Positions 2,046 through 23,061 of a stretch of DNA of 23,061 bases are shown one piece after another; position 1 is the first letter of the stretch, and each line of letters starts with the position of its first letter. Position numbers and translations under genes: made by a program. Below the pieces are notes generated by a model that was given only the letters and a program-made list of their open reading frames with translations, searched no databases and was not told the DNA's origin. The DNA comes from a virus, in the IMG/VR virus record IMGVR_UViG_3300044627_000331, positions 1 through 23,061 of that record; one strand, written 5' to 3'.

Positions 2046-2961
2046 AGAGTTATATACAACGCAGCAAATACATAGAGTGCTCACTGGAGCAGGAATTGAT
2101 ATTGAGGCTGAGTATGGAACTGATTATATAATTTTTTGCCCATATCATAATAATAATAGAACTCCAGCAGGAGAAGTTTCAAAAGAGTCTGGATTATTCT
2201 TTTGTTTTGGTTGCCAAACAACAAGAAGTCTTGTTGAATTAATTATGCACATGACTAGTAGAACATATTTTGAAACAGTTAGATTTATAAAAAGCAAAGA
2301 AACAGAAACAGATATTAAAGCAGTTATTAATAAAGCACTGCATCAAATGCCCGATTTTGTTCAGTATGACGAACTTCTTATTAAGAGATTAAATAAACAA
2401 GCACTAGATTCTCCAAGAGCAATGACATATTTTGAAGGTCGTAGACTTACAAGAGAATCTGTGATAAAATTTGATTTAGGGTTTTCTGAAAAACAAGATT
2501 CAGTTGTTATTCCTATGCAATCTCCAGATGGAATGTCTATCGGTTTTGTTGCAAGAACAATTGAAGGCAAAGAGTTTAAGAATACTCCAGGACTTCCAAA
2601 AAGCAAGATATTGTTTAATCTTCACAGAGTAAAAGCATCTAAGATAGTCTATGTTGTAGAATCTTCTTTTGATGCGATCAGATTAGACCAAGTAGGTTTC
2701 CCTGCGGTTGCTACCCTAGGGGCAAATGTTTCATCAAGCCAGATTGAACTTTTGAAACGGTACTTTACAGGTGTCGTATTAGTAGCAGACAACGATGATG
2801 CTGGAATGATTATGGCTGAGAGACTTACTGAAAAAATGGGTAACTTAGTTACAATTATTAGACCAGACAAAAAATATAAAGACATAGGCGATATGACAGA
2901 TGATGAAATTAGAACTCTTGAGTTCCAGTTTGACAATGTTATTGACTCTATGCTAAAATAA
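2038..2961 (+). CDS. DnaG-type DNA primase (zinc finger + TOPRIM)
   Basis: Makes RNA primers at the fork together with the adjacent helicase. From ATG 2038 it has 307 residues. A CHC2-like zinc-binding motif uses C34, H37, C56 and C59 (CPYH ... CFGC). The TOPRIM part has the conserved glutamate E208 in YVVESSFDAIRL and the DxD pair D251/D253 in VLVADNDDAG, followed by KDIGDM where primases usually have KDPND. An in-frame ATG at 1996 lies well inside the helicase; I prefer 2038 because it gives the usual short overlap and has a GAAG at 2028-2031. It lacks the C-terminal helicase-binding domain of full-length DnaG, as many phage primases do. A promoter for the next gene is embedded in its last codons. 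Confidence 0.9.
   Translation: MAKELYTTQQIHRVLTGAGIDIEAEYGTDYIIFCPYHNNNRTPAGEVSKESGLFFCFGCQTTRSLVELIMHMTSRTYFETVRFIKSKETETDIKAVINKALHQMPDFVQYDELLIKRLNKQALDSPRAMTYFEGRRLTRESVIKFDLGFSEKQDSVVIPMQSPDGMSIGFVARTIEGKEFKNTPGLPKSKILFNLHRVKASKIVYVVESSFDAIRLDQVGFPAVATLGANVSSSQIELLKRYFTGVVLVADNDDAGMIMAERLTEKMGNLVTIIRPDKKYKDIGDMTDDEIRTLEFQFDNVIDSMLK
2930..2959 (+). promoter_or_regulatory. sigma70-type promoter before the ssDNA-binding protein gene
   Basis: TTGACA (2930-2935), 18-nt spacer, TGC-TAAAAT (extended -10; hexamer 2954-2959). It lies inside the last codons of the primase. Predicted start is near 2966, leaving about 20 nt of leader with AAGGAG before the ATG at 2986. A separate promoter fits the high demand for ssDNA-binding protein. 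Confidence 0.6.
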
Positions 2962-2985
2962 TAAAACACTTATATAAGGAGAAAC

Positions 2986-3639
2986 ATGACTATTGTAAAG
3001 GGATTAAAAAATATAAACGCCCTAGTCGACAAGCCAAAATACGAAGGTACAGGAACAAAGGTTCGCTGGGTTAAGTTAGCGGACGGGCAAGCAGCAAAGA
3101 TTCGTTTTGTTAATGAGTTAGATGCAGACTCAGCAAACTATAACGAAGATCGTGGTCTAGCAGTTGTGTGTTCAGAGCATACAAATCCAAAGGACTATAA
3201 GCGCAAAGCAGCATGTACTCAGGAGTCTGAGGGTCGTTGCTTTGGCTGTGAGATGGCTCGTAAAGAGCCTAAGTCTGGCTGGAGAGCACGTTTGCGTTTC
3301 TACACAAACGTTCTTGTTGATGACGGAACAGAAGAAGCCTATGTCGCTGTGTGGTCACAGGGCATTAGTAAGCAATCAGCATTCAACACAATTCGTGAAT
3401 ACGCACTTGAAACAGGAAGCGTATCCAATCTACAGTGGAAGTTAAAGCGTAATGGTCAGGGAACTGAAACCAACTACACATTAATTCCAAGCATACCTGA
3501 CTCTGAGCCATTCAAGTGGGATGGCTATGAGTTCTTCAACCTAGAAAAGGTTGTCCGTGAAGTTCCTTATCCAGAGCAAGAAGCATTCTACTTTGGATTT
3601 GATACTCCATCTGTAACCAGTACGAATATCGACTGGTAA
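2986..3639 (+). CDS. T4 gp32-like single-stranded DNA-binding protein
   Basis: Predicted to coat single-stranded DNA during replication and recombination. The 217-residue protein has a zinc-knuckle pattern inside its OB-like core: C62/H65, C77, C85 and C88 (VVCSEH ... AACTQ ... RCFGCEM). As I recall, T4 gp32 binds zinc with H64, C77, C87 and C90, so spacing and position match closely. Aromatic and basic residues alternate through the core (GWRARLRFYTNVLV, LQWKLKRNG), as expected for an ssDNA groove. The C-terminus (FDTPSVTSTNIDW) is only mildly acidic, so a classical acidic protein-recruiting tail is weak. Strong Shine-Dalgarno AAGGAG just upstream of ATG 2986 and its own promoter. The polymerase gene follows after a TAA-TAG double stop. 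Confidence 0.82.
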   Translation: MTIVKGLKNINALVDKPKYEGTGTKVRWVKLADGQAAKIRFVNELDADSANYNEDRGLAVVCSEHTNPKDYKRKAACTQESEGRCFGCEMARKEPKSGWRARLRFYTNVLVDDGTEEAYVAVWSQGISKQSAFNTIREYALETGSVSNLQWKLKRNGQGTETNYTLIPSIPDSEPFKWDGYEFFNLEKVVREVPYPEQEAFYFGFDTPSVTSTNIDW

Positions 3640-11082: not shown

Positions 11083-11608
11083 AGAAGACCTAGTTAAGCA
11101 CCTTGATCAGGTAAATACAGTAGTTTCTGAATACCTTAAGGGTAATGACCCAACAGTTATCTCAAAAGAATTGGATATTCCACGCACTCGTGTCGTCACG
11201 CTTATCAATGAGTGGAAGGCTATGGCCTCAGACAACTCAGCAATTCGTGCTCGTGCTAAAGAAGCACTTGTAGGAGCAGACACACACTATACAAAACTTA
11301 TATCAAAGTCATATGAAGTTATTGATGAAGCGTCAATGACTAATAATCTTGGTGCAAAAACTGCAGCAATTAAACTAGTTATGGATATTGAGTCAAAGCG
11401 CATTGATATGCTTCAAAAGGCTGGGCTTCTTGAGAACAAAGAACTTGCAGAAGAAATGGTTGCGATTGAAAAAAGACAAGAAGTTCTTGTTGCAATTCTA
11501 AGAGATATTGCTTCATCTCATCCAGAAGTACGTGATATTATTATGCAAAGACTTTCCTCTATTGCAAAAGAGGGAGAGGTAATAACAGTTGTCCACGATG
11601 TTCAATGA
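11072..11608 (+). CDS. terminase small subunit candidate
   Basis: 178 residues directly before the terminase large subunit, overlapping it by 20 nt. N-terminal HTH of the homeodomain-like type: DPTVISKELDIPRTRVVTLI at about 26-45. This is followed by long helices (AIRARAKEALVGADTHYTKL, AAIKLVMDIESKRIDMLQKA, AEEMVAIEKRQEVLVAILRDI) suited to oligomerisation. Small terminases recognise packaging sites on the concatemer through such an HTH and form rings with helical cores. GAGGG lies before ATG 11072. The assignment rests on architecture and position, since small subunits diverge strongly in sequence. Confidence 0.75.
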   Translation: MSTEEDLVKHLDQVNTVVSEYLKGNDPTVISKELDIPRTRVVTLINEWKAMASDNSAIRARAKEALVGADTHYTKLISKSYEVIDEASMTNNLGAKTAAIKLVMDIESKRIDMLQKAGLLENKELAEEMVAIEKRQEVLVAILRDIASSHPEVRDIIMQRLSSIAKEGEVITVVHDVQ

Positions 11609-13373
11609 TTTCTTAGAAGTACTTAAGGAAAACAACTTTGACGAGATTCCAGTAGATGCAAAAACATTTGTTGAGTCTCCAGATTTTCTTGGGCAGCCAC
11701 CATTATCTGATATTCAATACGACATTGTTGAGGCTATGAGTCAGATTTATAAAAAAGAAGACTTAGAAGAGTTAATGGGATCAGTAGAAGGTAGCAAATA
11801 TTATGCAAAATATACTAAGAACGAAATCATTTTACAGTTGGGTAAAGGTAGTGGCAAAGATTTTGTTTCCACTGTTGCTTGTGCTTATGTTGTTTATAAG
11901 TTACTTTGCCTTAAAGACCCTGCCAGATATTTTGGAAAGCCAAGCGGAGACGCTATAGATATTATTAACGTTGCAGTAAACGCTCAACAGGCCAAGAACG
12001 TTTTCTTCAAAGGTTTTAAAAGTAAGATTGAAAGATCTCCATGGTTTGCAGGCAAGTATAATCCAAAAGCAGACAGCGTTGAGTTTGATAAATCAATTAC
12101 TGTTTATTCTGGACACTCAGAGCGTGAGTCACATGAAGGTTTGAACTTGCTCATGGCAGTCCTTGATGAAATTTCTGGGTTTGCATCTGAAGTAGGTACT
12201 GGAAATGATCAAGGAAAGACTGCTGAAAATATCTACAAAGCCTTTAGCGGTACAGTAGATTCTCGTTTCCCAGACCTAGGCAAGGTTGTTTTACTTTCTT
12301 TCCCAAGATATCAGGGTGACTTTATTTCAAAGCGGTATGACGATGTGATCATGGATAAAGATGTAATAGAACGTAGACACACCTATATAATCAACCCCGA
12401 TTTACCACATGATGATTCAAGTAATCAACTTGAAATTGTATGGGAAGAAGACCATATTGTTTCATATAAAATACCAAAGGTATATGCATTAAAGAGACCT
12501 ACATGGGAAGTAAACCCTACTAGAAGTATTGAAGATTTTAAAATGTCTTTCTTTAAAGATATGGGAGATGCAATGATGCGCTTCCTTTGCACCCCAACAT
12601 ATTCATCTGATGCTTTCTTTAAGCAAAAAGATAAACTAGAAAGATGTATGACCTTAAGAAATCCTGTGGACAGTCATAGAAGATTTGATCCAGGCTTTAA
12701 GCCAGATCCAGAAAAAACTTATTATGTTCATGCTGACCTTGCACAAAAACATGACAAGTGTGCAGTAGCAATTGCACATGTTGATAAGTGGGTTAGTATT
12801 CAGGTTATTAAAGATTACCAGCAGGTAGCACCAGTTGTTATTGTTGATGCCGTTGCTTGGTGGGAGCCAAAGGTAGAAGGCCCTGTTAATTTATCTGAGG
12901 TTAAACTGTGGATTCAAAATCTACGCAGAGAAGGCTTTAATATTGGAATGGTATCGTTTGACCGCTGGCAGTCCTTTGATATTCAAAATGAACTAAAGGC
13001 TGTTGGAATAAGAACTGATACTGTTTCTGTTGCTAAAAAACACTATGAAGATTTAGCAATGATGATATACGAAGAAAGAGTTGCTATGCCAATGATTCCT
13101 TTGTTGCTTGAAGAGATGAGCGAACTCAAGATTATGAAAAATAATAGAGTAGACCATCCACGCAAGAAATCTAAGGACTTGGCAGATGCCGTTTGTGGGG
13201 CGGTATTTGGAGCAATATCCCATACCAGTAAGGATTCCAATCTAGAAATTGAGATTCATACCTGGTCTACTGCATCCCGACTTGCACAAAAGCAAAGGGA
13301 TATGGTAGAATTAGAGACTAGGGAGATTCCTGAAGATATCAAGGATTTCCTAGATGAATACAAATTAATTTAA
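11589..13373 (+). CDS. terL: phage terminase large subunit
   Basis: DNA-packaging motor, 594 residues, ATPase plus RNase H-like nuclease. ATPase: Walker A GKGSGKD at 85-91 (aspartate where many P-loops have S/T, a form I recall in other large terminases) and Walker B LLMAVLDEISGF with D193/E194. A coupling-type motif may be VVLLSFPRYQGD (233-244). Nuclease: acidic residues D383 in YVHADLAQKHDK, D458 in MVSFDRWQS, and D530/D533 in KDLADAVCGAVFG. The TTG start at 11589 is favoured because AGGGAGAGG (11571-11579) is 9 nt upstream; ATG 11598 would be 18 nt away. No portal gene follows: the next gene is a secreted protein, which is unusual for a packaging-head gene order. Confidence 0.94.
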   Translation: MSTMFNDFLEVLKENNFDEIPVDAKTFVESPDFLGQPPLSDIQYDIVEAMSQIYKKEDLEELMGSVEGSKYYAKYTKNEIILQLGKGSGKDFVSTVACAYVVYKLLCLKDPARYFGKPSGDAIDIINVAVNAQQAKNVFFKGFKSKIERSPWFAGKYNPKADSVEFDKSITVYSGHSERESHEGLNLLMAVLDEISGFASEVGTGNDQGKTAENIYKAFSGTVDSRFPDLGKVVLLSFPRYQGDFISKRYDDVIMDKDVIERRHTYIINPDLPHDDSSNQLEIVWEEDHIVSYKIPKVYALKRPTWEVNPTRSIEDFKMSFFKDMGDAMMRFLCTPTYSSDAFFKQKDKLERCMTLRNPVDSHRRFDPGFKPDPEKTYYVHADLAQKHDKCAVAIAHVDKWVSIQVIKDYQQVAPVVIVDAVAWWEPKVEGPVNLSEVKLWIQNLRREGFNIGMVSFDRWQSFDIQNELKAVGIRTDTVSVAKKHYEDLAMMIYEERVAMPMIPLLLEEMSELKIMKNNRVDHPRKKSKDLADAVCGAVFGAISHTSKDSNLEIEIHTWSTASRLAQKQRDMVELETREIPEDIKDFLDEYKLI

Positions 13374-13389: not shown

Positions 13390-14544
13390 ATGAATTCATT
13401 TAAGAAAATCGCTCTTGCCGTGGTTGCAGCCATGACATTGGGCACAATGGTAGCAACACCTGCAAGTGCTAACACCATGTCAGTTGTAGCAACAACATGG
13501 AACGGTACGGCATTCGCTGCACCAGCAACTGCTGGAACAGCACTAACTACTGCAATTGCACGTCCAGTGCCTGCAGATAACAAGATTAACGATGCTGACG
13601 TGGTTCAGTTGGTAGCAACAGTTGTTGCTGGAACAAACGTAACTGCAACAGCAACTAACGCAACAATCGTATCTAAACTACATGAAGACACTGCACCAGT
13701 AGGGGCATCGTCAGGATCATCATCTTTGACAATTGCAACAGGTACTGGAACAACAGCAACATTTTATGTCTACACAAAGACAACAGCAATCGGAACAGTT
13801 GTAATCACAAATGGTCCAGTAACACTTACATATTATGTACAGGGTACTGCTGGTTTAATTAACAACCTAACAGTTTCTGCTCCTGCTTCAGGGGCTGCTG
13901 GCACAAAGCAAGACATTGTTGTAACTGCAACAGATGCATTTGGAAACAAGGTATCTGGTAAGTCAATTACTGCAACAGTATTTGCTGCAACAGCAGTAAT
14001 GGATACAGCAACAGTAGCAACTGGTGCTACACTAACAGACTTTGGAACAGCAACCTTTAAGGCAACTCTTCCAACAACAGGAACACGATCACTTATTACA
14101 TTTGCTCCAACAACTGCAGGAGATGCAGTTGCAGCAGCAGTAGTAGGCTTGACCGCTCCAACACTTGCACCATTTGCAGAAATTGCAGTTCGTGATCTAG
14201 TATCAGAACTTGCTGCTCAGGTTGCTGCAAAGGATGCAGCACTTGCTGCTAAGGCTGTTGCAGATGCTGCAGTTCTAAAGGCTGCTGCAGATGCAGTTGC
14301 TGCTAAGGCTGCTTCAGATGCTGCTCTTGCAGCAGAGAAGGACGCTTCTGTAAAGGCTCTTGCTGATGCAAAGGCTGCTTCAGATAAGGCACTTGCTGAT
14401 GTAAAGGTTGCATATGATGCAACTATTGCTAAGTTGACTGCAGATAATGCAGCAGCAATCAAGTCTATGAAGGCCGCATTCAACAAGTTGGCTATTCAGT
14501 GGAACAAGAAGAATCCAAAGGCAAAGGTTACTTTAGTTAAGTAA
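13390..14544 (+). CDS. secreted Ala/Thr-rich surface protein with Ig-like domain and coiled coil
   Basis: 384 residues. A Sec signal peptide (KKIALAVVAAMTLGTMVATP, cleavage likely after ASA at 25-27) shows the product is exported. Residues 30-150 are Thr/Ala-rich and beta-like. Residues 155-255 look like a bacterial Ig-like (Big) domain with TDAFGNKVSGKSITATV. Residues 265-365 are an Ala-rich coiled coil with many AAKAA/ADAA units. The basic tail ends in NKKNPKAKVTLVK. AAGGAG precedes ATG 13390, and an intrinsic terminator follows directly. The whole plan resembles a bacterial cell-surface or S-layer-like protein. It could coat the infected cell, or be a virion fibre that uses the Sec route; signal peptides are rare in virion proteins. 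I recognise no precise family. Confidence 0.85.
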   Translation: MNSFKKIALAVVAAMTLGTMVATPASANTMSVVATTWNGTAFAAPATAGTALTTAIARPVPADNKINDADVVQLVATVVAGTNVTATATNATIVSKLHEDTAPVGASSGSSSLTIATGTGTTATFYVYTKTTAIGTVVITNGPVTLTYYVQGTAGLINNLTVSAPASGAAGTKQDIVVTATDAFGNKVSGKSITATVFAATAVMDTATVATGATLTDFGTATFKATLPTTGTRSLITFAPTTAGDAVAAAVVGLTAPTLAPFAEIAVRDLVSELAAQVAAKDAALAAKAVADAAVLKAAADAVAAKAASDAALAAEKDASVKALADAKAASDKALADVKVAYDATIAKLTADNAAAIKSMKAAFNKLAIQWNKKNPKAKVTLVK

Positions 14545-14559
14545 TTAATCCAACAACTG

Positions 14560-14588
14560 AGGGAGCCATTAACTTGGCTCCCTTTTTT
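14560..14588 (+). terminator. intrinsic (Rho-independent) terminator
   Basis: GGGAGCCA (14561-14568) pairs perfectly with TGGCTCCC (14575-14582), loop of 6 nt, followed by six T (14583-14588). A60-T83 can extend the stem. It closes the transcription unit that holds the terminase and the secreted Ig-like protein. It is the only clear terminator found in the window. Confidence 0.93.
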
Positions 14589-14617
14589 GTTATCTTCATA
14601 TGTTTAATTGAATAATT

Positions 14618-14626
14618 TGATATAAT
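14618..14626 (+). promoter_or_regulatory. extended -10 promoter for the PA14-like surface gene
   Basis: TGA-TATAAT (14618-14626), about 30 nt after the terminator, without a good -35. Predicted start near 14633 would fall on the GAGGAGAG ribosome site, so the leader would be very short; a start a few bases earlier is possible. Placement right after a terminator supports a new transcription unit. Confidence 0.55.
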
Positions 14627-14647
14627 AAGCAAGAGGAGAGTCCCCAC

Positions 14648-16783
14648 TTGAAAAAACTCTTGCGTACATTTACAGTTTTTATTCTTGCTTTTGGATGGCT
14701 ATTTATAGCACCAACAGGGGCTAATTCTGACGATCCTATAGCAATAGGCGCACAAAGGATAGAAGCCCTAAACGAACAAGTTTCAGACCTTAATGATATT
14801 TCTGAGTTTGTTCCTCTCATAGAAGAAGCCCAAGATAAATATGACGCTGCCGTGATTTCCAGGGATAATAAAATATCAGCAGAAGAAGACTATGTAGATG
14901 CAGTAGATGCAGAATCAACATCCCTATCTAATTTGAATAATAAAATATCATTATTAAATGCAGCGCAAAAAGCGGTAGATGATCAAACCCCAATAGTTTC
15001 AACTGCATTAACAAACAGAAACAATGCTCAGGAAGCATTGGCAATAGCCAACCTTAATCTTCAAACCACACAGTCTAATATGCAGGCTGCTGGAGGATCA
15101 GGTTTGGCATATACTGTTTATAATCTTGTTAGACAGGGTAATGTTGCTACCCCAGGATCTGTGCTTTGTTCTGGCACCTGGAACTCAAGTTCTATGAACC
15201 TTCCAGTTTGTGATAATAGATATGAAAACTTTATTGTTAAGTTTGTTGGACAGATTACAGTTCCGTCATGGTTTACAACAGTATCATTTGGGGGATACAC
15301 AGATGATGGGTTTAAAATGTATGTAGATGGAGTACTTGCTACAAGTCAGTGGGTAGAGCAAGGAACAACATGGAGTCCATTTACTCCAGTTTATAATGTT
15401 AGTGAAGACAAAACATTAGATGTAGAAATTTGGTGGTACAACGGTGGGGGCCCAGGCTCTTATCTTCTTGGATGGACAATTCCTGGTGGAATGACTAGTG
15501 CAGGGTGTGATTATGCTGGAAATCCAAGAGTGTGGGGAGAAAATTTTAGTTGTGATCTTAATACATTTTCTTCTGGTCCTGGTGCAACACAAGAGCAAAT
15601 AAATGATTATAACCAAGCACTTGCAGCAAGAACATCTGCATTAGCAACTTATAATGATAAGTTATCTGTTTATAACACGGAACTTGAAAAGTTAAATACA
15701 TATAACAGTGAATTAACAACTGCCAATACTAATAAAAATAATGCACAAACTGCCTATGAAACTGCACAAGATAATACTCAAGATGCATTAGATGAAAAAA
15801 ATAATGCTATTGAAGACTACAATAATGCAATTGAAGATATGAATAATGCTATTACTGCCGCAGAAGAAGAGTACGAGGCTCAATGGGATTTTGAAGAAAG
15901 GCAGAGAATTAATGCTGCTATTGCTACTGCCCTTGCAAATATGCCACAGCCAGAACCAACACCAGAGGTTACAGTTGAGCCTACCCCAGAGCCTTCTCCA
16001 GAACCATCAACTGAGCCAACAGAGGAACCTACTGAAGAACCTACGCCAGAGCCTTCTCCAGGGCCTTCTCCAGAGCCTACAGAAGATCCTAAGCCAGAGC
16101 CTACGGAGGAACCTACACCTGACCCAACCCCAGAAGTTACTCCAGATCCAAAACCAACAGATGAGCCAGTGGTAGAGCCAACTGAAGAGCCAACTCCAGA
16201 ACCTACACCAGAAATAACTCCTGAACCAGAACCAACAACTAATCCTGAGATAGAGGATGAAGAGTTGGCTGCACTTATTCCCGAAAAAGGCACAGGAACA
16301 TCAGAAGATTTATCTGGAGTTATTGCTAACCTTACAAGTAAGGATAATAAGTTAGTTACACTTTCACCTGAACAGGTAGCAGCGGTTAGCCAAACACTTA
16401 AGTCTTTGACGCAAGAAGCAAAGTCAGAGATTGCTGGAGACCTTGGAATCAAGGCATCAGAAGTTGCACAGATTGCTGAGCAAATGAAGGGTAATCCAGC
16501 ACTTGCCTCAGCATTTGTTGAGTTCGCAGAAAGAGCAGGGGATGCAGGAAATTCTGCAATGCCATTTACATTAGCAGATGCAGTAACAGAAGTGCAAACA
16601 GAGGCATTTTTAGCAGATCCATTGGGAGCAATTACAAACATAGATTTTGAAAAGATTCTAAACCCAGCGGAATGGGGAAAGGATATGACTGACGACCAAA
16701 GAGAAAAGGCTCAAGAAGTCATAATCCCAGTAATTATAGTATCAAACATTGTTAGTTCTGTTATGTCAATAAGGAGGTTATAA
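14648..16783 (+). CDS. large surface protein: signal peptide, coiled coils, PA14/GLEYA-like domain, Pro/Glu/Thr stalk, C-terminal anchor
   Basis: 711 residues, TTG start with AGGAG 9 nt upstream. Order of parts: signal peptide 1-26 (KKLLRTFTVFILAFGWLFIA); coiled coil about 35-145; a beta-sandwich 153-303 with YTDDGFKMYVDGVL and WWYNGGGPGSYLLGW, typical of PA14/GLEYA carbohydrate-binding domains, and cysteines C174, C188, C287 and C302; a second Asn/Gln-rich coiled coil 313-430; a PTPEPSPEP-like stalk 434-535; a helical domain 545-690; and a final hydrophobic segment VIIPVIIVSNIVSSVMS ending in RRL. It looks like an anchored adhesin, with the sugar-binding head held between coiled coils. It may alter the infected cell surface or act as a receptor-binding virion part. 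Export and architecture are seen; the role is inferred. Confidence 0.82.
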   Translation: MKKLLRTFTVFILAFGWLFIAPTGANSDDPIAIGAQRIEALNEQVSDLNDISEFVPLIEEAQDKYDAAVISRDNKISAEEDYVDAVDAESTSLSNLNNKISLLNAAQKAVDDQTPIVSTALTNRNNAQEALAIANLNLQTTQSNMQAAGGSGLAYTVYNLVRQGNVATPGSVLCSGTWNSSSMNLPVCDNRYENFIVKFVGQITVPSWFTTVSFGGYTDDGFKMYVDGVLATSQWVEQGTTWSPFTPVYNVSEDKTLDVEIWWYNGGGPGSYLLGWTIPGGMTSAGCDYAGNPRVWGENFSCDLNTFSSGPGATQEQINDYNQALAARTSALATYNDKLSVYNTELEKLNTYNSELTTANTNKNNAQTAYETAQDNTQDALDEKNNAIEDYNNAIEDMNNAITAAEEEYEAQWDFEERQRINAAIATALANMPQPEPTPEVTVEPTPEPSPEPSTEPTEEPTEEPTPEPSPGPSPEPTEDPKPEPTEEPTPDPTPEVTPDPKPTDEPVVEPTEEPTPEPTPEITPEPEPTTNPEIEDEELAALIPEKGTGTSEDLSGVIANLTSKDNKLVTLSPEQVAAVSQTLKSLTQEAKSEIAGDLGIKASEVAQIAEQMKGNPALASAFVEFAERAGDAGNSAMPFTLADAVTEVQTEAFLADPLGAITNIDFEKILNPAEWGKDMTDDQREKAQEVIIPVIIVSNIVSSVMSIRRL
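15947..16252 (+). repeat. Pro-Glu-Thr-rich low-complexity repeat tract
   Basis: About 100 codons made of degenerate PTPEPSPEP, EPTEEPTPE and PDPTPEVTPD units (residues 434-535 of the surface protein). The DNA repeats CCAGAGCCT/CCAACTGAAGAG variants. Such tracts form extended stalks in cell-wall-associated proteins and can change length by slippage or recombination. Confidence 0.85.
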
Positions 16784-16787
16784 TAGG

Positions 16788-17213
16788 ATGGTTATGAATA
16801 AAGTTAAAGAGAAGGTAAAGGTGATTTTAGGCAAGATAAAGATGCCTAAAGTTGTAATTCCTAAAATAAAAATACCAAGCATTAAAATACCAAAGTTTAA
16901 GATGCCAAAAATATCTATCCCAAGCATTAAAATGCCAAAAATAAATATGGAAAAACCAAAAGCATACATTACAAAGTCTTTTCCGATTATTAAAAAAATG
17001 TTTAAAATTTTTACAAAGATTGTTAAAGGCTTTATTTCATGGTTTTGGAAAGCAGTTAAAGAAAGTATTGCTCAGGTTTGGACACTGCTTGGATTCTTTA
17101 TTGCATGGCTTACGCTTACAGGAACAGCCCAGCAGGTAGTTGGAATGGCAACATTAATTGCCACTGCTATCTGGCTTATAACAATACCATTGCGTGAAGA
17201 CAAAGAAGATTAG
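16788..17213 (+). CDS. membrane protein with seven proline-pentad repeats and two C-terminal TM segments
   Basis: 141 residues, very lysine-rich N-terminal half. Residues 19-53 are seven consecutive pentads of form (I/M)-P-(K/S)-(I/V/F)-x (MPKVV, IPKIK, IPSIK, IPKFK, MPKIS, IPSIK, MPKIN), with prolines at 20, 25, 30, 35, 40, 45 and 50. Residues 60-95 form an amphipathic cationic region (IIKKMFKIFTKIVKGFISWFWKAV). Hydrophobic segments at about 97-111 and 115-135 look like a membrane hairpin. A perfect AAGGAGG (16771-16777) lies in the end of the previous gene. Positively charged amphipathic plus hairpin layout could suit a holin, membrane anchor or wall-spanning protein. No family is recognised. 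Confidence 0.8.
   Translation: MVMNKVKEKVKVILGKIKMPKVVIPKIKIPSIKIPKFKMPKISIPSIKMPKINMEKPKAYITKSFPIIKKMFKIFTKIVKGFISWFWKAVKESIAQVWTLLGFFIAWLTLTGTAQQVVGMATLIATAIWLITIPLREDKED
16842..16946 (+). repeat. 15-nt coding repeats (seven pentad units)
   Basis: Seven 15-nt units encoding (I/M)-P-x-(I/V/F)-x. The string CCAAGCATTAAAAT(A/G)CCAAA occurs twice, 45 nt apart (three units), pointing to duplication of a multi-unit block and not only to protein-level convergence. Confidence 0.75.
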
Positions 17214-17226
17214 GATAGTTACTGAT

Positions 17227-17436
17227 ATGAAAAAAATAGCAGCCCTACTATCAGCATCTGTGCTTTCTTTGTTATTGACCTCTTGCGGGGTACTGGAGAA
17301 TAGATATCGCTATGATTGCCACGACCCTGAAAACTGGTATAATAAAGAGTGTAATCCACCAATATGCTTGGCAGATGGATTATGCACTAAAGACATACTT
17401 GGTTTTGATCCTACGGAGGGTAGCGTAAATGAGTAA
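17227..17436 (+). CDS. small Cys-rich lipoprotein, 69 aa
   Basis: Lipoprotein signal: MKKIAALLSASVLSLLLTSC, with lipobox LTSC and lipidated cysteine C20. The short mature part (RYRYDCHDPENWYNKECN ... ICLADGLC) has four more cysteines (C31, C42, C47, C53) that could form two disulfides outside the membrane. I recall similar short lipoproteins with a 'YRY.C.DP.NW....C..P.C' pattern in marine phages, next to a two-TM protein as here, but their function is not known to me. I chose ATG 17227 because it gives a proper signal peptide with AGGATAG 9 nt upstream; the in-frame ATG at 17194 adds a charged extension. It overlaps the next gene by 8 nt. Confidence 0.82.
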   Translation: MKKIAALLSASVLSLLLTSCGVLENRYRYDCHDPENWYNKECNPPICLADGLCTKDILGFDPTEGSVNE

Positions 17437-17752
17437 AAAAAGATATACATCAGATGAATTAGATGCAAGACTAAAATTTTTTCTTGGTATGACACTAGGA
17501 ACAATTCTATTGTTTACAACAATGGGAATTCTGTATGCCCTTGTTTTTGTAACACAGCCAATTGGAGAGCAGTCAGAAAATGACAAGATGTTCTTTAATG
17601 TATTATCATCTGTAGCAACATTTATTACTGGCACACTTGCTGGTATTTTAATTGGTAAAAATGGCGGGGGTTCAGATAACTCACAGCCTATTCAGACATC
17701 TGAGCCTGTAGTTAATCAGGTAGCAGATGACTTTGATGACTTTATTGAATAA
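17429..17752 (+). CDS. two-TM membrane protein, holin candidate
   Basis: 107 residues. A charged N-terminus (SKKRYTSDELDARLK) precedes TM1 at about 17-41 (FFLGMTLGTILLFTTMGILY) and TM2 at about 54-76 (MFFNVLSSVATFITGTLAGI), then a polar acidic tail ending DDFDDFIE. Size and two TM segments fit class II holins, which make the membrane lesion that lets endolysin reach the wall. GGAGGG lies 8 nt before ATG 17429. It is fused by overlap to the lipoprotein gene, so the pair may act together in lysis or in membrane defence. The lysin gene is about 2.2 kb downstream. The holin role is inferred only. Confidence 0.8.
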   Translation: MSKKRYTSDELDARLKFFLGMTLGTILLFTTMGILYALVFVTQPIGEQSENDKMFFNVLSSVATFITGTLAGILIGKNGGGSDNSQPIQTSEPVVNQVADDFDDFIE

Positions 17753-18572: not shown

Positions 18573-19403
18573 ATGAAAAAGGTAGTGGGGATTTTTACAA
18601 TTCTGTTTGCTGTTGCATTTTTGCCAGCGGTACAGGCTGAAGAAAAGGTTGCAATTGCAATTATTGACACTGGTGTAGATACATCACAGGTAAAAGTATT
18701 TCATGAGGTATGTATTATGGAAGAAAAGCGTTGTCCAAACAAGCAAACTTTCATGGAAGGTCCTGGCTCTGCAACACGCTCTGCCGTAAATGGGTTTGAG
18801 CATGGAACACGCATGGTTAAAGTTGCACAAGCAATTAATCCAAATGTAAATATTGTTTTTATTCGTATTATTCCAGCAGACAGAAATGACAAAAATCCTA
18901 TGTTTGCTGCTGCAAATTCTAATAGCACTGTAAAGCAGGCTCTTGATTGGGTAGTTAAGAATAAGACAAAGTTTAATATTGTAGCAACATCTACATCTTT
19001 TTCTGAGTATTCTAGATTCAAAAAGGGTGCTAACTATTGTCCAGTAAATCGTCCTTTGCAAAATACTATTGTATCTTTGCAAAAGTTAAACGTTGGAACT
19101 TTTTTTAGTGCTGGTAATGACTACAAGGCAGATCAAATTGGATACCCAGCATGTATCTCTGAGTCAATTGCAGTAGGTGCATCTAATGCTGACCATAGAG
19201 TTGAACTCTACAGCAATAAGGCTCCACAAATTGATTTCTTTGCTCTTGGTACATATGATATTTTAGGAGAAAGAATTATGGGAACTTCTCCATCTACCGC
19301 TGCACTAGCAGCACATTGGGCTAAAAATTACAAGGGTACTTATCAGGGTACATACGACTATTTAAAGTCGGTATCAATCAACCTTGTGGTGCCTTTAGCA
19401 TAG
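18573..19403 (+). CDS. secreted subtilisin-like serine protease (S8 family)
   Basis: 276 residues. Signal peptide 1-22 (KKVVGIFTILFAVAFLPAVQA, cleavage after VQA). The catalytic triad is in order: D32 in AIAIIDTGVDTS, H77 in GFEHGTRMVKVA and S239 in GTSPSTAALAAHW, with the oxyanion-hole asparagine N182 in FFSAGND. The mature domain begins almost at the catalytic Asp, so there is no I9 propeptide, which most secreted subtilases need for folding. Strong AAGGAG before ATG 18573. Likely works outside the membrane, perhaps on host surface proteins, at lysis, or in processing of the phage surface proteins encoded upstream. The catalytic assignment is strong; the substrate is unknown. Confidence 0.9.
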   Translation: MKKVVGIFTILFAVAFLPAVQAEEKVAIAIIDTGVDTSQVKVFHEVCIMEEKRCPNKQTFMEGPGSATRSAVNGFEHGTRMVKVAQAINPNVNIVFIRIIPADRNDKNPMFAAANSNSTVKQALDWVVKNKTKFNIVATSTSFSEYSRFKKGANYCPVNRPLQNTIVSLQKLNVGTFFSAGNDYKADQIGYPACISESIAVGASNADHRVELYSNKAPQIDFFALGTYDILGERIMGTSPSTAALAAHWAKNYKGTYQGTYDYLKSVSINLVVPLA

Positions 19404-19969: not shown

Positions 19970-20761
19970 ATGACAACTAAGGGTTCGCTAGAAGCAATCA
20001 TTGATATTGCAAAGAAAGAAATTGGAACTATTGAAGGTCCAAAAGATAATGAAACAAAGTATGGCAAGTGGAGCGGTGCTAACTTTCAGCCATGGTGTCA
20101 GTCCTTTGTTTCTTGGTGTGCGTTTACATCTGGTTTAGATGCTAAGAAGTACCCAAAGACTGCTTCAACAGTAGCAGCAGCAGATTGGTTTAAGAAGAAT
20201 AATAGATGGGCAGATGCTCGCAATGATGATCCAACTCCAGGAGACTGGATCTTTTTTGATTTTCCAGATGATGGTGTAAATCGTATTTCACATGTTGGTC
20301 TTTGCATAAAGAATAATGGAGATGGAACTATCCAAGTTATTGAAGGAAACACATCAGGAACTTCAAAGGGAGACCAGAGAAATGGTGGAATGTGCGTAGA
20401 AAAAACTCGTGCTTATGTAAAAAACAAGAAGGGCATCTTGAATGCTGTTGTTGGCTGGGGCCGTCCAGTATATGCTGGAGAAGAAAATCTCCCATTGCTT
20501 TCAAAAGGTGGAGCAGTTTCGCAACCAACTGCTACTGCAAGTGCACAACCAGCAAATGCAGAAAAGAAGCAGTTTACTCCATTTAAAGTTGGATCAAAGG
20601 GAGAATCAGTAAAAAAGGTTCAAGAACTCTTAGGAGTAAATGCAGACGGTAGTTTTGGTCCAGGAACTGAAAAAGCAGTTAAGTCTTTTCAAAAGAAGTC
20701 TTCTTTGCCAGTAACAGGTGTAGTTGATCAAGCAACATTAAAGGTACTAAGAGGTAAGTAA
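19970..20761 (+). CDS. endolysin: CHAP-type amidase/peptidase with C-terminal peptidoglycan-binding domain
   Basis: 263 residues, no signal peptide, so export to the wall would depend on a holin. N-terminal catalytic CHAP-like (NlpC/P60-related) domain 1-168: nucleophile C43 in FQPWCQSFVSWC, H108 in RISHVGLC, and E125/N127 in VIEGNTSG as third residue. Pro/Thr/Ala linker about 180-198. C-terminal PG_binding_1 domain 203-263 with VGSKGESVKKVQELLGV, GSFGPGTEKAVKSFQKK and VTGVVDQATLKVL. Together these cut and bind peptidoglycan, in line with a Gram-positive-type wall. It is followed 1 nt later by an FmdB-like gene. A virion-associated lysin is possible, but soluble endolysin is the simplest reading. 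Confidence 0.92.
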   Translation: MTTKGSLEAIIDIAKKEIGTIEGPKDNETKYGKWSGANFQPWCQSFVSWCAFTSGLDAKKYPKTASTVAAADWFKKNNRWADARNDDPTPGDWIFFDFPDDGVNRISHVGLCIKNNGDGTIQVIEGNTSGTSKGDQRNGGMCVEKTRAYVKNKKGILNAVVGWGRPVYAGEENLPLLSKGGAVSQPTATASAQPANAEKKQFTPFKVGSKGESVKKVQELLGVNADGSFGPGTEKAVKSFQKKSSLPVTGVVDQATLKVLRGK

Positions 20762-22218: not shown

Positions 22219-23061
22219 ATGCCATATTCTATCGGAGAAAAGGGATCATACGGTTGTTCTGGGTACCCTGCCATTAAAGACGGAACAAATGAAGTGATGG
22301 GGTGCCACACTACCAGAGCAGAAGCGGCTGCTCAAATCTATGCTATTAACATGTCTGAGGGCAACATAGACAAAGCCATGCAGCCTATTAAAGAAGGCGA
22401 TTTTGTTATGGGAATGACATCCGAAGGAATGGTTCACGGAGTTGTTGAGCATATTATGAATGAAGGCGGTACTCTAGGAACACCTGGATCAGAGTATGCT
22501 CTTGAATCTATGCCACCAGAAAATCCAGCAATGTCAGTTAGAATTTATAAAGAAGATGACGGTAAGTGGGAACCAACTGCATATAGTATTGGAATGATGT
22601 ATAAAAATGCACAGGTTGTAGATATAAACAATCATAGTATGGAAGACGATGATGATGAAATGAATTCAGAAGTTGCTATGGCAATGTATGATTCATCAAT
22701 TGGTAAAAGAGAAATGGCTAATGCTCCATATGAAGATTATGAGGGAGCGGACAACTGGGACAACGTTACAAAATCATGCTGGGTTGGATACGAACAACAA
22801 GGAATGAAAGAAAAAGATGGACGAATGGTTCCTAATTGTGTTCCAGTTGGTAAGACATACAGCATGGAGGATGAAATAGAAAAGGCAAAGTCTGTATCTG
22901 TTGGAGATCATGTGACCTTTGCAGTTCCAAAGCCACCAGACAAAACAGAATCTGCACATGGTGTTGTAGAAAGAGTTGAAAGATCTGGCACAGTAAAACT
23001 TCCTGGAACAAATGAAAGTGTTGGAGCATCTTCAGATAATCCAGTAGCAGTTATTAGAGTT
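22219..23061 (+). CDS. head-morphogenesis/prohead-protease-associated protein, 3' end outside the window
   Basis: 281 codons open to the window edge. N-terminal Cys-rich module SYGCSGYPAIKDGTNEVMGC with HTTRAEAAAQIYAI resembles the start of head-maturation-protease-linked proteins in actinophages. Residues 57-134 form a beta-barrel, Tudor/SH3-like unit: IKEGDFVMGM, HGVVEHIMNEGG, NPAMSVRIY, then WEPTAYSIGMM. Residues 179-209 carry NWDNVTKSCWVGYEQQGMK and RMVPNCVPV, a module common in phage scaffold and capsid proteins. From 226 a second related unit begins: VSVGDHVTF, HGVVERVERSG, NPVAVIRV. Such domains precede protease, scaffold or capsid regions, which should lie downstream. The start is fixed by the leaderless promoter. 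Confidence 0.75.
   Translation, partial: MPYSIGEKGSYGCSGYPAIKDGTNEVMGCHTTRAEAAAQIYAINMSEGNIDKAMQPIKEGDFVMGMTSEGMVHGVVEHIMNEGGTLGTPGSEYALESMPPENPAMSVRIYKEDDGKWEPTAYSIGMMYKNAQVVDINNHSMEDDDDEMNSEVAMAMYDSSIGKREMANAPYEDYEGADNWDNVTKSCWVGYEQQGMKEKDGRMVPNCVPVGKTYSMEDEIEKAKSVSVGDHVTFAVPKPPDKTESAHGVVERVERSGTVKLPGTNESVGASSDNPVAVIRV

Follow-up and report, generated by a model that had tools for sequence, protein, structure and literature searches.

What do the genes immediately downstream of the large terminase subunit gene (terL) do in IMG/VR virus record IMGVR_UViG_3300044627_000331, and is it the virion or the infected cell that they serve? The window, that is, the whole stretch analyzed, comprises 23,061 nucleotides (nt), positions 1 to 23,061 of that record. 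A preliminary description of this DNA listed five open reading frames (ORFs) after terL, at 13390-14544, 14648-16783, 16788-17213, 17194-17436 and 17429-17752, here named genes A to E, and read them as one surface and membrane system. All five ORFs proved to be real. Pattern scans of IMG/VR gave 599 candidate stretches each for A and B; relatives were encoded by at least 457 of 599 stretches for A and at least 592 of 599 for B, and A and B are therefore not chance ORFs. Counts of relatives refer to the matches listed. The findings below show that A and B mark a constant slot for variable proteins, predicted from their sequences to be exported, in a widespread group of freshwater actinophages.

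A fixed slot with exchanged contents

11589..13373, + strand: terL, the fixed gene preceding the slot; its product is 53% identical to TerL of Streptomyces phages Yaboi and Karimac
13390..14544, + strand: gene A, predicted exported immunoglobulin-like (Ig-like) rod of 384 amino acids (ORF, relatives, structure model)
14648..16783, + strand: gene B, predicted stalked PA14 membrane protein of 711 amino acids with a TTG start (ORF, relatives, model)

Occupancy of the slot was scored in a sample chosen independently of A and B, the best 80 TerL loci listed, from which 7 with less than 200 nt after TerL were dropped. An ORF beginning with MNS(F/L)(K/Q)(K/R) started within 90 nt of TerL in all 73 remaining loci, with ATG in 72 and, as judged by eye, GTG in L234. 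By BLAST, a relative of A was found downstream of TerL in only 51 of the 68 loci of this sample with at least 600 nt, despite the constant start, indicating that the body of A has been replaced. The 61 complete A-slot proteins fell into four clusters of 26, 17, 16 and 2.

Where more than 3 kb of sequence followed A, the B slot held an ORF of at least 400 amino acids in 18 of 19 loci. Sixteen of these 18 finished with a REK(A/V) motif, followed by a hydrophobic segment and a tail containing Arg, and those of L197 and L230 with a variant motif and a Ser/Gly-rich tail. The tips were of several kinds: PA14 in the window type, L197, L244 and L170, a non-PA14 tip with a fibronectin type III (fn3)-like part in L187, and a shorter one without a Pfam match in L179. 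A non-PA14 B-slot protein, P0001, had no match in the PDB at E up to 0.1. Of the 13 long records recovered via A or B, all had B and 12 had A. No description of such a slot for variable exported proteins was found in the open-licence PMC papers searched, and PMC6802176 does not mention signal peptide, surface, PA14, Ig-like or superinfection.

Alleles of A and B are exchanged largely independently of the genome backbone

Pairwise identities were tabulated after incomplete genes and pairs above 99.5% in all genes had been dropped; loci of one contig recur in this table, as they do in the gene-order listing of 153 loci and in the adjacency counts of C, D and E below. Among 153 non-identical pairs with TerL identity of at least 98%, the median identity was 84% for A (n = 153) and 81% for B (n = 137); for terS, E and C it was 100% (n = 107), 100% (n = 37) and 95% (n = 90), respectively. 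Loci L013 and L035 were 99-100% identical in eight other proteins compared, yet only 79% identical in A and 72% in B. Their DNA identity dropped at the start of A, was approximately 91-93% in the A-B spacer and rose again towards the end of B.

When one was kept of loci with identical TerL, terS and A (84 reduced to 64), the Spearman correlation among the 64 non-redundant loci was 0.84 for TerL with terS and 0.19 for TerL with A. Of 54 pairs whose TerL was at least 98% identical, 30 fell below 85% in A and none did so in terS. Among pairs with TerL below 85%, A was at least 90% identical in 85 of 1225; L098 and L115, for example, share an A 96% identical with TerL at 55%. Exchange also reached a second phage group, whose terL, where seen, was approximately 44-56% identical to that of the window. 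Across the two groups A was shared at up to 96% and B at up to approximately 80% identity, while their structural-region proteins were approximately 22-45% identical where matching, and some were unmatched. The median ratio of nonsynonymous to synonymous substitution rates (dN/dS) was 0.28 for A, 0.29 for B and 0.03 for TerL, pairs with fewer than 3 synonymous changes or with dS outside 0.05-1.5 having been dropped.

A and B have the features of exported surface proteins

13390..13470, + strand: predicted signal peptide of A, ending in ...TPASA (hydrophobic segment; MNS(F/L)(K/Q)(K/R) start common to relatives)
13471..14202, + strand: two Ig-like domains of A, residues approximately 28-154 and 155-271 (model, mean predicted local distance difference test [pLDDT] score 65)
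14200..14511, + strand: long Ala/Lys helix of A (H271-374), then a basic C-terminal tail (model)

The model of A, which is of middling confidence, consists of two Ig-like domains and a 104-residue helix. Its best fold matches reached Z of approximately 10 and included invasin (1cwv, 8.9), intimin (8.5) and the S-layer protein SbsB (8.1); FdeC was also matched. The tandem Ig-like rod is thus a fold common to A and these proteins, at middling scores, but A finishes in a helix and a basic tail. Pfam gave no Big match for A and sub-cut-off Big_1 matches in two other A-slot proteins, and the PDB sequence search with A gave none at E up to 1. Neither A nor B was matched in named phages by tblastn, nor were one other A-slot type and one other B-slot type.

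14648..14722, + strand: predicted signal peptide of B (hydrophobic segment; signal-like starts in other B-slot proteins)
14807..15088, + strand: stalk helix 1 of B, residues 54-147 (model)
15089..15583, + strand: PA14-type domain of B, residues 148-312 (TDDGF and NGGGPG invariant in 19 sequences; fold and profile matches)
15590..15937, + strand: stalk helix 2 of B, residues 315-430 (model)
15941..16252, + strand: Pro-Glu-Thr-rich stalk of B (38 Pro, 26 Glu and 19 Thr among 104 residues)
16259..16783, + strand: conserved helical C-domain of B with DMTDDQREKAQE, C-terminal hydrophobic segment (residues 690-708) and RRL tail (similar C-termini under other tip types)

The model of B, likewise of middling confidence (mean pLDDT 68, predicted template modeling score 0.40), places a PA14-type fold, a sandwich of sugar-binding type, between long helices. 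This fold matched the PA14 domains of RsgI3 (6qe7, Z 14.0) and of the adhesin MpAFP (12.1) and flocculin Flo5 (11.4). The PDB profile search also matched B to RsgI3 PA14 (4.9e-9); two stronger matches fell on the low-complexity stalk. B therefore carries a PA14 domain on both fold and profile evidence, although Pfam PF07691, which three other B-slot proteins did match, was not reported for the window B at E up to 0.1. Invariant DD and GGG stretches accompany the fold in B; what separates it from the three proteins, apart from an identity of 12-23%, is that its PA14 domain tips a phage stalk. PA14 proteins of uncultured Caudovirales, among them A0A6J5NKY8, the best viral-library match of B (57% over 722 alignment columns), are annotated from the domain alone, with no function listed. 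Two kinds of match to B were set aside: PADLOC matches (E 1.4e-4 to 1.6e-3), which lie on the coils and stalk, and an NCBIfam SslE match, which lies on the stalk.

The A-B boundary and the two gene arrangements

14559..14584, + strand: intrinsic terminator between A and B (10-pair stem and T run)
14621..14626, + strand: TATAAT, candidate -10 element before B (by eye; conserved in 5 of the 8 sequences aligned)

A stem and T run was seen by eye at the same site in the other 7 aligned sequences, in some with a different stem. With a terminator after A and a TATAAT before B, A closes the terL run and B to E probably form a separate unit. The gene order in the group of the window was terL-A-B-C-(D-E)-HslV-g72-subtilase-(Hsp20)-endolysin, with gains and losses, g72 being a 72-amino-acid gene. 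In the second group, B-C-D-E-endolysin stood together and A lay several kb further on, behind HslV-subtilase-thioredoxin-g72. Among 145 listed loci with A, the gene came directly after TerL in 107 (76 distinct A) and directly after g72 in 34 (22 distinct); in the remaining 4 it followed neither. The preliminary description had named a randomly differing order among close relatives as a finding that would count against it, and none was seen. The five-gene block it proposed does recur in the group of the window but is broken in the second group, where A stands apart from B to E, and the terminator and this separate position of A do not fit a single cassette.

A and B are probably displayed on the infected cell and may limit adsorption

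Taken together, the signals, the anchor and the exchange make display on the cell the better reading, and A and B very likely stand on the surface of the infected cell. What they do there is put forward more tentatively: we suggest that a lytic actinophage exports both proteins to stand outside the infected cell, most likely limiting adsorption (exclusion). Support is much stronger for display than for exclusion. In this proposal A would be expressed together with terL, and B would have a promoter of its own; A would stay on the envelope, and B would hold its PA14 tip far from the membrane on the helical and Pro-Glu-Thr stalk. With this layer in place, fewer phages could adsorb to the infected cell and its debris, a form of surface or superinfection exclusion comparable with that of PrgA in conjugation and of Llp in T5, and the alleles would probably fit the surface of the host strain rather than the phage's own tail.

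PrgA of pCF10 (PDB 6z9l) was the third-ranked match of the B model (Z 13.3 over 228 residues at 4.7 Å, model range 47-437). PMC10588982 describes PrgA as acting in surface exclusion, its protease domain borne by an approximately 40-nm stalk. B resembles PrgA in being encoded by a mobile element and, as predicted and modeled, in being exported and in holding a domain far from a Gram-positive cell on what may be a similar long helical stalk. Unlike PrgA, B has a PA14 tip in place of a protease-like one, is phage-borne and not on a conjugative plasmid, and by reading ends in DMTDDQREKAQE, a hydrophobic segment and RRL with no LPxTG, the wall anchor motif named in PMC7726212. Phage-made envelope proteins that end adsorption, Llp of T5 and Cor, are described in PMC9586334. 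Llp, a small lipoprotein of the periplasm, jams a single receptor, whereas A and B would be long proteins on the outside; gene D resembles Llp and Cor only in size and lipobox.

Several observations weigh against this interpretation. The match to PrgA rests largely on long helices, for which Z of approximately 13 may mean only a common arrangement; two helices on either side of a tip domain would produce such a value. The PgrA profile TIGR04320 (SEC10/PgrA) gave 19.9 bits on B, below its cut-off of 70, on a coil that was also matched by SMC and other coil models. Signal peptides were called by a hydrophobicity script and by eye rather than by a dedicated predictor. No median dN/dS above 1, as expected of diversifying selection on the tip, was obtained in any part tested, and within B the median was 0.15 for PA14, below the 0.32 and 0.45 of the coils. 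Locus L240 lacks a B-slot ORF; in L171, A is followed by a short gene and HslV only. Finally, if A were a mask for the receptor that the phage itself uses, A and the tail should be coupled, and two pairs showed no such coupling.

A and B may also, though this is put with more reserve than exclusion itself, constitute a dedicated display locus of an abundant lake actinophage group, in which a constant export signal and membrane anchor are kept and whole surface domains are recombined, giving strain-variable infected-cell surfaces comparable with those formed by plasmid PrgA/PrgB. If so, phages would possess an analogue of variable surface antigen loci, one that alters the infected cell rather than the virion. 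Some lytic lake actinophages would then spend several kilobases on changing the face of the infected cell, choosing among many alleles. Which organisms can infect, eat or adhere to infected cells would be affected, and strain diversity in freshwater Actinobacteria and in their phages would become more open to testing.

Genes C, D and E and a possible role in lysis

16788..17213, + strand: gene C, KMPKI-repeat membrane protein (ORF, one hydrophobic segment above cut-off)
17227..17436, + strand: gene D, a small lipoprotein whose frame is open from GTG 17194 onward (related genes in two named phage records)
17429..17752, + strand: gene E, protein with two transmembrane segments, phrog_25359 (ORF, PHROGs match, two hydrophobic segments)

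The next explanation to be weighed is that B to E, perhaps with A, serve lysis, B spanning the thick wall and helping to break it together with C to E and the endolysin. C and D were adjacent in 67 of 67 loci and D and E in 65 of 66. An endolysin gene followed E within 400 nt in 49 of 58 loci with both (37 of 44 when one was kept per identical E/endolysin pair). In these relatives C to E are transmembrane proteins beside an endolysin, the arrangement of a holin-endolysin module, which is not the case in the window itself; in the other 9 loci, including close relatives of the window, the endolysin lay 2.2-4.3 kb from E. No holin or spanin family match for C to E was obtained in Pfam, PHROGs or NCBIfam, where small membrane proteins are often missed. 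D and E also occur in two records that tblastn with A and with B did not find, those of phage DSL-LC01 and of a Manatee Spring phage, and one of these two named records has nuclease-like and chitinase-like genes nearby. Against a part for B in lysis, C to E remained with the endolysin when the B type changed, L240 has an endolysin and no B-slot ORF, and a swappable lectin-like tip would be unnecessary for lysis. A lysis role for B to E, perhaps with A, is unlikely, although it is the strongest of the alternatives to display and exclusion. C, D and E look like a separate small membrane trio that is lysis-associated and not part of the variable display; of the five-gene surface and membrane system first described, the surface reading is the best one for A and B and does not seem to fit C to E.

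Gene C has KMPKI/KIPSI repeats and differs in length among close relatives (141, 146, 151 and 156 amino acids); it had no match in named phages. A lipobox-like LTSCG (by eye) goes with the hydrophobic segment of D, and the ATG at 17227 is more likely to be the start of this gene than 17194. The D-E pair lies at 11990-12516 in DSL-LC01 and at 2834-3273 in MW202675, which are otherwise different freshwater phages.

Adhesion, virion and host-gene explanations

It is quite unlikely that A and B serve to make infected cells or ghosts stick to cells or particles, with aggregation raising local infection on lysis or changing grazing. The PA14 domain does match flocculins and the adhesin MpAFP, and the Ig-like domains match invasin, intimin and FdeC, but this is analogy at the level of the fold only, and cells of sparse plankton may rarely meet.

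That A and/or B are virion parts merely looking exported, such as capsid or tail decorations or receptor-binding fibres, is improbable. Ig-like and PA14 folds do occur in phage virion proteins, several matches carry names such as tail, structural, adsorption or Big-1, and receptor-binding proteins are likewise swapped fast. However, signal-like N-termini were present in 73 of 73 A-slot loci and in several B-slot types, B ends in a hydrophobic segment with an RR tail, and alleles have moved between phages whose structural-region proteins are as dissimilar as given above. A and B lie far from the portal gene and were not found to sit in a structural block and travel with it. The allele of A was also not coupled to the distal tail proteins in the two pairs tested: A was 100% identical between relatives G001 and G002 and 99% between G004 and G012, but the most distal tail-region ORFs of these pairs had no full match or were 41-55% identical, the other tail ORFs being 57-99% identical. 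This result counts against placing A in the tail, as well as against the idea that A is simply matched to the receptor-binding protein of its own phage. Exported virion parts, the alternative offered in the preliminary description, are accordingly weakened by the exchange across groups and by the lack of coupling. As a separate observation, G001 and G002 (tail region, L248, L163, L249, L250) were 93-99% identical in the proteins after the portal and diverged strongly from a tape-measure-sized ORF onward (60% and less, with two large ORFs without full match), which makes a second variable island within the tail.

It is highly improbable that A and B are host surface genes acquired by the phage: they look host-like and are common to phage groups, but the A slot was filled in all phage loci of the TerL-based sample, and two scans of one genome per species in 84,980 bacterial and archaeal species, in which exact short peptides were required so that distant homologues may escape, and which covered A and not B, gave no relative of A among 183 and 85 candidate stretches. 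The earlier view of A and B as proteins that change the surface of the infected cell remains the best reading, given the export signals, the anchor of B, the adhesin-like folds of the models, the possibly PrgA-like stalk and the exchange.

Portal position and the ORF at 22.2 kb

The genes were first described as sitting where the portal gene would be expected. A query with the portal of Streptomyces phage Karimac recovered portal genes, their products 49-60% identical to it, from 10 of 12 long relatives. In contig coordinates, this gene lay upstream of terL by approximately 37 kb in G005, 39 kb in G004 and 46 kb in G001. Portal and terL are likewise distant in Karimac (24.8 and 69.4 kb), where terL is followed by HNH, transfer RNA and small genes. 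No portal is therefore expected after terL and nothing has been displaced; the idea of a portal displaced by the cassette is ruled out by these positions. This corrects the reading of the phage group, in which the portal does not follow terL. A resumption of head genes near 22.2 kb is likewise unsupported: the ORF there matched nine PHROGs of unknown function, and a head maturation protease only at E = 0.04. This ORF (22219-23061) has short Cys-rich and KEGDFVMG-type stretches, and a similar stretch was seen by eye at L160 14621-15061.

Phage group and neighboring genes

18573..19403, + strand: secreted subtilase (Pfam PF00082, 1.1e-10; N-terminal hydrophobic segment), a strongly variable neighbor
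19970..20761, + strand: endolysin with CHAP and peptidoglycan-binding domains (Pfam and PHROGs matches)

In the window, a replication-to-terminase run (DnaB-like helicase, primase, single-stranded DNA-binding protein, DnaE, MazG, RecA, Cas4-like, RuvC-like, terS-like and TerL) is followed by A to E, an HslV-like gene, g72, subtilase, Hsp20 and endolysin. Several of these names are our own reading of the ORFs and of their position relative to Karimac. The TerL identity of 53%, the portal matches in long relatives and a common helicase-to-terL order place the phages as relatives of Stanwilliamsviridae, an assignment from TerL and portal homology and backbone order and not a formal family rank. 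All 16 relatives tested, with records of 37-118 kb, have a WhiB gene, as is consistent with actinobacterial hosts; these may be Nanopelagicales.

Beyond A and B, the subtilase, g72 and, less so, the HslV-like gene vary too. The subtilase has a signal-like N-terminus and DTG, HGT and GTS motifs (by eye), and its median identity was as low as 69-78% in phages whose TerL proteins were at least 90% identical. It lies near A in genomes of the second group, and surface proteins could be its substrates. Relative G005 (L160 18922-19983, L161, L162) contains carbamoyltransferase-, oxygenase- and glycosyltransferase-like ORFs, named by reading of their N-termini.

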